Shown here in pieces: positions 1 to 1,038 of a DNA stretch of 17,101 nt. A program made the position numbers and the translations under genes. Position 1 is the first letter of the stretch. Each line of letters starts with the position of its first letter. Origin of the DNA: Candidatus Poribacteria bacterium (GTDB lineage: Bacteria; Poribacteria; DTPJ01; WJIO01); assembly GCA_014730235.1 (NCBI GenBank), contig WJIO01000294.1, positions 1 through 17,101 of the forward strand, written 5' to 3'. The notes beneath the pieces are model-generated. The model did not search any database. It saw nothing but the letters and a program-made list of their open reading frames with translations, and had not been told where the DNA came from.

Positions 1-861
1 AGGAATACCAATGCCAACAGCAAGGGTCGCACCGTAACCTCTAAACGACACACCCCGCAACCAATCCGGGACCATCTGTTTCAGGTCGCCAATAACCGAA
101 AGCGTTCCCGCTCCACCTTTTGGTACTCCGCCTTCTGTCCTGGCCACTGTTGGATTATGCTGTGTTCCCTGCCATATAACATAGCCCACGCCGCCTCCCA
201 GGAATATCCGGGTTCCAATACCGATGGTTTTGTATTCCGGGTCATTCATAAGTGGCGAAAGCTGGGCGGCACTACAGTATGTGGCATTTCCCAACTTGGG
301 TTTAATCGTTCCCATGTATGTGTATATGGTTTTATCCGAAAGATTAACCGCGCAGTTATAATTTTGATAGGCATTTCTGGGGTTAGTCAAAACTGCCTCA
401 TTTAAGTCTTCCAGCTTTATCCACGTATCCAGTTCTTTTCCAGGATAACAATCCGTTCCATAAGCAATGGCCTTCAGCCTGATGTCCTTACCGGATACCA
501 GGTCTTCAATAATATGACCGCCGCCGTATTTAAATTCACCGGGAAATACCTTATTCAGGGGATCATCCTCCGGCAATTCCGTTGCGCCGACATAAAGGTC
601 AACGGCAGCCAATCCCGCATAGGCATTAACACCGTTAAGCCATGCTTTCTGAACCTTTATCCTGGGTTTGGCATGACCAAAGTTCAGAAAAGCGCCGCTG
701 GAACACATGGGGCTAAAAGTTCCTGTGGTAACAACATCTACTTCCTGAGCAGCTTTTTTCACCCCTTTTTCATCCACAATATCAATAATCTCTTCCGCTG
801 TTACAACAACAACTTCACCTTTTTTAATCCTATCATTAATCTCTGCATAAGTTTTTGACAT
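1..861 (-). CDS. Homocysteine biosynthesis protein, DUF39/HcyBio family (3' end outside window)
   Basis: The first 287 codons of a DUF39 (HcyBio, COG1900) protein are present. The reading frame is open to the window edge, so the C-terminus is missing. In methanogens this family is linked to forming homocysteine from aspartate semialdehyde using sulfide-derived sulfur. Visible family blocks are TTGTFSPMCSSGAFLNFGH (about residues 45-63, with Cys53), AYAGLAAVDLYVGATE (80-95), YGGGHIIEDL (112-121), AYGTDCYPGK (133-142, with Cys138), NPRNAYQNYN and TIGIGTRIFLGGG. The two cysteines are the likely sulfur-handling residues (family knowledge, not shown here). The start is ATG at 861, with AGGAGG 6 nt upstream. 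That Shine-Dalgarno lies immediately after the T tract of a terminator, so expression must depend on readthrough from the rrf2 side. Identity is highly secure; its exact role in this bacterium is inferred. Confidence 0.93.
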   Translation of the reverse strand, partial: MSKTYAEINDRIKKGEVVVVTAEEIIDIVDEKGVKKAAQEVDVVTTGTFSPMCSSGAFLNFGHAKPRIKVQKAWLNGVNAYAGLAAVDLYVGATELPEDDPLNKVFPGEFKYGGGHIIEDLVSGKDIRLKAIAYGTDCYPGKELDTWIKLEDLNEAVLTNPRNAYQNYNCAVNLSDKTIYTYMGTIKPKLGNATYCSAAQLSPLMNDPEYKTIGIGTRIFLGGGVGYVIWQGTQHNPTVARTEGGVPKGGAGTLSVIGDLKQMVPDWLRGVSFRGYGATLAVGIGIP

Positions 862-881
862 CTCATCCTCCTTATAAAAAT

Positions 882-918
882 AAAAAAAACCCACTAACCA
901 ATTTATTCGGCAGTGGGT
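882..918 (-). terminator. Rho-independent terminator in the DUF39 leader
   Basis: Reading the minus strand, ACCCACT (918-912) pairs with AGTGGGT (895-889) across a 16-nt loop that can pair partly further (GCC with GGT). Eight T residues follow at 889-882, then A and five more T. The T tract ends about 8 nt before the AGGAGG of the DUF39 gene, which leaves no room for a promoter in between. It therefore sits in a 5' leader rather than simply closing rrf2. Confidence 0.85.
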
Positions 919-997
919 ATCTGATATTTAACTTGTAGTATAATTTCACATTAACATAGTCTCACCCCAAAGCCGATGGCTCATAGACATAGCCATC
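882..997 (-). promoter_or_regulatory. Putative methionine attenuator with mutually exclusive hairpins
   Basis: Four segments follow the trp/his attenuator plan. Segment 1 (997-991, GATGGCT) pairs with segment 2 (981-975, AGCCATC) and contains or flanks most of the Met codons of the leader ORF. Part of segment 2 (CGGC 975-972 plus GGGT 967-964) can instead pair with segment 3 (ACCC 918-915 plus GCCG 911-908). Segment 3 otherwise pairs with segment 4 (AGTGGGT, 895-889) to make the terminator. The leader stop codon (948-946) lies just past segment 2, so a ribosome resting there would mask it and favour termination. A ribosome stalled at the Met cluster would leave it free to form the antiterminator. 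The pairings are seen in the sequence; the sensing mechanism is inferred. Confidence 0.6.
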
Positions 998-1038
998 ATT
1001 ATCATCATATTATTTTCATTACACCACAAATTAAACAT
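946..1038 (-). CDS. Methionine-rich leader peptide, 30 aa
   Basis: This is a small ORF upstream of DUF39. From the ATG at 1038 it encodes MFNLWCNENN followed by MMIMMAMSMSHRLWGETMLM and a TGA stop at 948-946. An alternative start at 1008 would give 20 aa. Nine of 30 residues are Met, six of them within nine codons (1008-982), far above the frequency expected by chance. The ATG at 1038 lies 2 nt after the rrf2 stop codon, so reinitiation or translational coupling is the likely means of translation. No strong Shine-Dalgarno precedes either start, and this is the weak point. By analogy with amino-acid operon leaders, the peptide itself probably has no function beyond reporting Met-tRNA supply to the terminator downstream. 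Confidence 0.6.
   Translation of the reverse strand: MFNLWCNENNMMIMMAMSMSHRLWGETMLM

Follow-up and report, generated by a model that had tools for sequence, protein, structure and literature searches.

A candidate methionine leader-peptide attenuator between rrf2 and a DUF39 homocysteine gene in a Candidatus Poribacteria bacterium

How is a gene for homocysteine formation expressed when an intrinsic terminator stands directly before it, and why does the stretch ahead of that terminator hold a short reading frame crowded with methionine codons? Both questions are raised by the rrf2-DUF39 locus of the window, the whole 17,101-nt stretch of DNA that was analysed, which is one of the 451 contigs (C233) of a 5.5-Mb genome (G000). 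The best explanation is a ribosome-mediated transcription attenuator between the two genes that senses methionine, a reading to which we give a probability of roughly 0.6.

The locus and its methionine-rich leader

On the minus strand the order is promoter, rrf2, a 179-nt intergenic stretch and DUF39/HcyBio; the last gene is incomplete, as the contig end falls inside it. The following features carry the argument.

1525-1497, minus strand: predicted sigma-70 type promoter ahead of rrf2, TTGACA-17-TATAAT, matching the consensus at all 12 positions
1451-1041, minus strand: rrf2-family transcription regulator gene, 136 amino acids (Pfam PF02082, 1.8e-38)
946-1038, minus strand: leader ORF of 30 codons, nine of them Met, reading MFNLWCNENNMMIMMAMSMSHRLWGETMLM and ending in TGA
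982-1008, minus strand: putative regulatory codon cluster, leader codons 11-19, M M I M M A M S M (Met at six of nine)
867-873, minus strand: Shine-Dalgarno AAGGAGG of DUF39, read in the sequence
1-861, minus strand: DUF39/HcyBio gene (homocysteine formation), ATG at 861 (Pfam PF01837, 1.1e-126)

The predicted promoter is presumed to serve the whole rrf2-leader-DUF39 unit. The Rrf2 protein has the Cys pattern C-X6-C-X5-C, which is kept in relatives preceding cysK; in NCBIfam and PDB searches its nearest solved relatives were of the CymR/IscR type, and its NCBIfam matches fell under both equivalog cut-offs. Two relatives from the phylum, 55% and 49% identical, sit before a ThiS/MoaD-like gene with cysK and before cysK with a cysteine-desulfurase-like gene, respectively. 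To judge from its sequence, Rrf2 likely acts at the promoter in response to sulfur or Fe-S status, and it may regulate sulfur metabolism as an Fe-S type protein. DUF39 proteins are needed for the formation of homocysteine, the precursor of methionine (PMC5764234), and this supports the proposal, made in an earlier sequence-only reading of this DNA, that the amino acid sensed matches the gene product, which lies one step from methionine.

The leader ORF is unusual in its codons. Beyond the cluster, codons 28 and 30 are also Met and directly precede TGA, and of the 11 ATG triplets in the intergenic stretch nine are in the frame of the ORF. The same reading had singled out the cluster (six of nine codons, 1008-982) and the two Met codons before the stop, and shuffling bears it out: in 50,000 dinucleotide shuffles of the intergenic stretch, six ATG codons within nine were never reached (maximum five), and neither were nine in one complete ORF (maximum eight). 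As a control, the Met pattern ATGATGNNNATGATGNNNATG was searched in the genome itself, with one mismatch permitted, and in 96 other genomes; apart from the window, the matches examined closely lay within longer ORFs in another frame or in low-complexity runs, a result that in the relatives covers the part of the loci that was opened. The weak point already named in that reading was correct in both respects, since a clear Shine-Dalgarno is absent from the leader ORF and its ATG lies 2 nt downstream of the rrf2 stop. This spacing would be suited to reinitiation.

Competing RNA structures and the position of ribosomes

Downstream of the leader ORF the transcript meets a terminator, and several pairings compete for it or surround it.

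1018-1038, minus strand: 5' arm of stem P1, leader codons 1-7, beginning exactly at the leader ATG (folding)
975-997, minus strand: hairpin 1:2 (997-991 with 981-975), with two Met codons in its loop (folding)
964-976, minus strand: 5' arm of the antiterminator, 976-972 and 967-964 (folding)
924-944, minus strand: 3' arm of stem P1, in the spacer from the leader stop to the terminator (folding)
907-918, minus strand: shared segment, able to enter either the antiterminator (as its 3' arm) or the terminator (as its 5' arm) (folding)
889-918, minus strand: intrinsic terminator hairpin, about -15 kcal/mol (folding)
876-888, minus strand: terminator T tract, T7 A T5, running into the DUF39 ribosome site (read in the sequence)

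The strong terminator whose T tract abuts the DUF39 ribosome site was thus correctly recognised from the letters, with the hairpin at 918-889, then T7 A T5, and AAGGAGG at 873-867; the hairpin is absent from the list produced by a simple consensus scanner for terminators. There is no room for a promoter between the terminator and the DUF39 ribosome site, and therefore every DUF39 transcript must cross the terminator. The antiterminator pairs 976-972 with 911-907 and 967-964 with 918-915 (duplex -17.0 kcal/mol) and in this way competes for the 5' arm of the terminator, so that the two structures are mutually exclusive. It had been proposed that hairpin 1:2 completes a set of three mutually exclusive pairings. 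All three exist, but hairpin 1:2 is compatible with the antiterminator: it has only one or two bases in common with it, the two coexist in the ensemble (0.79 for hairpin 1:2 and 0.86 for the antiterminator), and as a switch element it was rejected.

The longest helix of the region, which had been missed in that reading, is stem P1, with 21 uninterrupted pairs (1038-1018 with 944-924). A helix of this length appeared in one of 3000 shuffles. Four of its pairs are G-U, which makes P1 stable on the minus strand only, and on the opposite strand the longest helix has seven pairs. P1 and the antiterminator together would require a pseudoknot, and in the folding model it is P1, in place of hairpin 1:2, that appears as the main competitor of the antiterminator. 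The stability of the whole leader fold corresponds to z = -5.3, and none of 200 shuffles was equally stable.

To relate these structures to translation, the leader was folded with ribosome footprints masked, both at full length and as RNA reaching only up to the terminator loop, and the E. coli leaders trpL, thrL, leuL and hisL were folded identically as controls. With the complete leader at equilibrium the terminator was dominant at all ribosome positions tried (0.82-1.00), so that this form of folding did not discriminate between ribosome states and was set aside as a test of them; as the terminator wins at equilibrium, kinetics would have to do the work. Attenuators decide before the terminator is complete, and folding was therefore repeated with RNA ending at the terminator loop. 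When all RNA behind the ribosome was covered, pairing of the shared segment was about 0.75 with the ribosome at Met11-17 and at most 0.14 from codon 22 on, a profile like those of E. coli trpL and thrL, to be read within the limits of ribosome-masked folding that are indicated by hisL, which departed from its textbook pattern. The switch was robust to footprint and RNA length; when the downstream half was shuffled 1000 times, an equal one arose in 17 cases (1.7%), which makes the fit of the antiterminator moderately unusual.

The number of ribosomes on the leader is decisive in these calculations. In RNA up to the terminator loop the antiterminator pairs were at 0.00 with no ribosome present and, with a lone ribosome, at 0.00 at Met12-19 and 0.40 at Met11; a lone stalled ribosome is insufficient because P1 closes behind it. 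With a second ribosome stacked behind the first, the same pairs rose to 0.99-1.00 at Met11-17 and 0.65 at Met19. The position of the stop codon had been thought to fit trp-type logic, and this is contradicted by the value of 0.78 with a lone ribosome on the stop codon, where the 5' arm of the antiterminator stays free. Trp-like logic would, as far as folding goes, work only if ribosomes queue. We infer that they do so on the leader, which is plausible because the ORF begins 2 nt past the rrf2 stop and would be supplied by rrf2 translation. The methionine attenuator first read from the letters is thus upheld in its codons, terminator and antiterminator, with methionine as a plausible signal, whereas its wiring, by way of hairpin 1:2 and the stop position, is not.

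If the attenuator reading is correct, methionine would be sensed through the charging of elongator Met-tRNA. Transcription from the rrf2 promoter would enter the intergenic leader, and ribosomes that are done with rrf2 would reinitiate on the Met-rich ORF. On the one hand, with ample methionine, ribosomes would finish the ORF and depart, P1 would close and block the antiterminator, and the terminator would stop transcription ahead of DUF39. On the other hand, with scarce methionine, a ribosome would stall at codons 11-19 and those following it would queue over codons 1-7; the queue would keep P1 open, leaving 976-964 free to capture the terminator's 5' arm (918-907), and once the antiterminator has formed RNA polymerase would continue into DUF39. 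A more specific version, which we hold only tentatively and regard as rather doubtful, is that P1 makes termination the default, that antitermination needs a ribosome queue coming from rrf2, and that readthrough would report methionine shortage together with rrf2 translation.

Among the alternatives, the one that survives best, unlikely as we consider it, is a plain intergenic terminator of rrf2 with partial readthrough, in which P1 would be a stem that protects or processes the 3' end and the Met codons would be a functionless expansion of an ATG repeat. The terminator is located about 120 nt past rrf2, ATGATGATAATGATG resembles a short repeat expansion and the Met ORF is without conservation, all as such a terminator would have it. 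Because part of the Met cluster resembles an ATG repeat, a second shuffle was made with that block kept and the rest shuffled, and four more in-frame ATGs before the stop arose in 37 of 20,000 cases. The four further ATGs outside the block therefore speak against repeat expansion, and the presence of an antiterminator and the lack of promoter space for DUF39 downstream of the terminator speak against a terminator serving rrf2 alone.

Sensors before other DUF39 genes

The comparison set, about 110 upstream regions, was made up of the 80 closest DUF39 loci, relatives from the phylum and another 25 loci. Neither a Met-run nor a homologous leader was present in any of these other regions, and the conserved Met ORF that the sequence-only reading had suggested looking for in related DUF39 leaders was accordingly not found. 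With the leader as a DNA query, only short chance-level matches were obtained in the phylum, and a plasmid collection that was searched had no DUF39 relative. The Met leader was likewise absent from the close relatives, namely the second DUF39 copy of the same genome and those of G001, G016 and G079, and no Met-run lies upstream of the metF, S-methyltransferase and NIL-ferredoxin genes or the second DUF39 of this genome. The nearest DUF39 genes, which are 82% identical, occupy different gene contexts. The case thus consists of one sequence; the DUF39 leaders examined are not homologous to the Met leader, so that the missing Met ORF is no refutation.

Three side observations belong to this comparison. 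The second DUF39 of the genome is full-length (G000:C23, 672-1868, locus L001; 82% identical) and has a long hairpin about 200 nt upstream, without a T tract or Met ORF. Upstream hits of the form LSALMTTTMPRM in many Syntrophomonadaceae looked like a conserved Met peptide and proved to be part of a cobalamin-binding (MetH-like) gene. In five deltaproteobacterial loci (L040, L041, L043, L052 and L059) a small conserved ORF that starts MDRES or MGPES lies 167-198 nt upstream of DUF39, between the SAM-I riboswitch (where one was found) and the gene; positions 1, 7 and 12 of its product are Met, as is often position 14, and its ribosome site, GGAGGTG, is strong.

What other DUF39 genes do carry is informative. 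A SAM-I riboswitch or its core motif lies directly before about 20 of them, and three have a T-box.

L010, 3593-3864: T-box before DUF39, specifier-aligned codon AUG
L202, 2680-2897, minus strand: T-box before DUF39, specifier-aligned codon AUG
L205, 1172-1399: T-box before DUF39, specifier-aligned codon AUG

The specifier was read off the alignments in all three, which suggests control of the DUF39 homocysteine route by sensing of Met-tRNA. The order in L010 is rrf2, T-box, DUF39, and in L040, L043 and L059 it is rrf2, SAM-I riboswitch, DUF39. The order of rrf2, RNA sensor and DUF39 thus recurs across unrelated phyla, and rrf2 also precedes DUF39 without a sensor (L048, L084 and G079:C903). 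Since the slot elsewhere holds sensors of Met-tRNA or SAM, methionine is a plausible signal for the Met leader, and this comparison of gene order and motifs would be the strongest independent support for it.

The genome itself employs RNA sensors of several kinds. It has one SAM-I riboswitch, before a metK-sahH pair (G000:C143, L191), and T-boxes before ilvD (G000:C53, L194) and pheS (G000:C161, L195), the gene names being assigned by reading translations. Given that its one SAM-I riboswitch sits before metK, DUF39 would need another sensor. The Met leader had no match at gathering score in Rfam, and those below were at chance level; it matched neither SAM-I nor the other Rfam SAM riboswitch covariance models, which detected positive controls in other DUF39 loci, nor the T-box covariance model with its GGUGGNACCGCG element, for which L010, L202 and L205 were the positive controls.

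These tests bear on a second alternative, namely that the leader belongs to an as yet undescribed class of RNAs that bind a metabolite (SAM, methionine or a sulfur compound, for example), where P1 closes a multi-helix domain before the terminator and the Met ORF is a by-product. A fold more stable than any of its 200 shuffles (z = -5.3), a 21-bp closing stem with hairpins inside it and the many DUF39 genes under riboswitches would suit such an RNA. However, a riboswitch does not predict nine in-frame Met codons with a stop just ahead of the terminator, aptamers of riboswitches are usually conserved whereas no homologues were found here, and Rfam offered nothing above chance level; we therefore consider it improbable, more so than a plain terminator. 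That the ORF encodes a small Met-rich protein with a function of its own, perhaps binding metal as Met-rich motifs in known proteins bind copper, is highly improbable although the ORF is complete and coupled to rrf2, for it has no relative at any DUF39 locus examined, its ribosome site is weak, and the ORF lies inside RNA stems with its stop adjoining the terminator, as in leader peptides.

Relation to known attenuators

Attenuators of the leader-peptide type are familiar from His, Phe, Thr, Leu, Ile/Val and Trp, whereas the control of methionine genes is commonly ascribed to SAM riboswitches, T-boxes and repressors. The codon cluster, terminator and antiterminator that mark the attenuator class are all found at this locus, and the element likely works like a leader-peptide attenuator. 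As in E. coli trpL, thrL, leuL and hisL, a short ORF has clustered codons of the pathway's amino acid, its stop lies 24-65 nt ahead of an intrinsic terminator, and an antiterminator competes with that terminator. Three differences from the E. coli leaders are seen: the amino acid is methionine; the leader is intergenic and follows a regulator gene, where the E. coli leaders open the transcript; and the classical 1:2 hairpin is replaced by a 21-bp stem over the first seven codons. With the T-box and SAM-I leaders of other DUF39 genes it shares its place ahead of DUF39, and with some of them that downstream of rrf2 as well, and the T-boxes with an AUG specifier read the same signal as is proposed here, the charging of Met-tRNA. 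Those leaders bind tRNA or SAM directly, whereas the Met leader is without either motif.

In surveys, leader peptides are described for amino acids other than methionine, which is placed under S-boxes (PMC1262725, PMC2965389). A methionine leader peptide, metL, in our view a weak example, has been proposed before the metNIQ transport genes of Streptomyces lividans; it has two internal Met in 29 codons, as well as Cys and Thr, and no typical terminator according to its authors (PMC8079986), whereas the leader described here has eight internal Met and a clear terminator. No other methionine leader was found in a search of the literature outside subscription journals, and an earlier report may exist. 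In Chlamydia trpRBA, too, control is described in the stretch separating a regulator gene from the biosynthetic genes after it (PMC7755916); there the repressor YtgR and an internal promoter take part, whereas the proposal here is a short leader ORF with an intrinsic terminator.

A putative Met leader-peptide attenuator of this kind is so far known from one genome, and what chiefly weakens the attenuator reading is that no homologue was found. If that reading is true, AUG can be used for regulation besides being the start codon, and homocysteine formation through DUF39 would be served by at least three RNA sensors that replace one another in the same slot: the SAM-I riboswitch, the Met T-box and the Met leader peptide.
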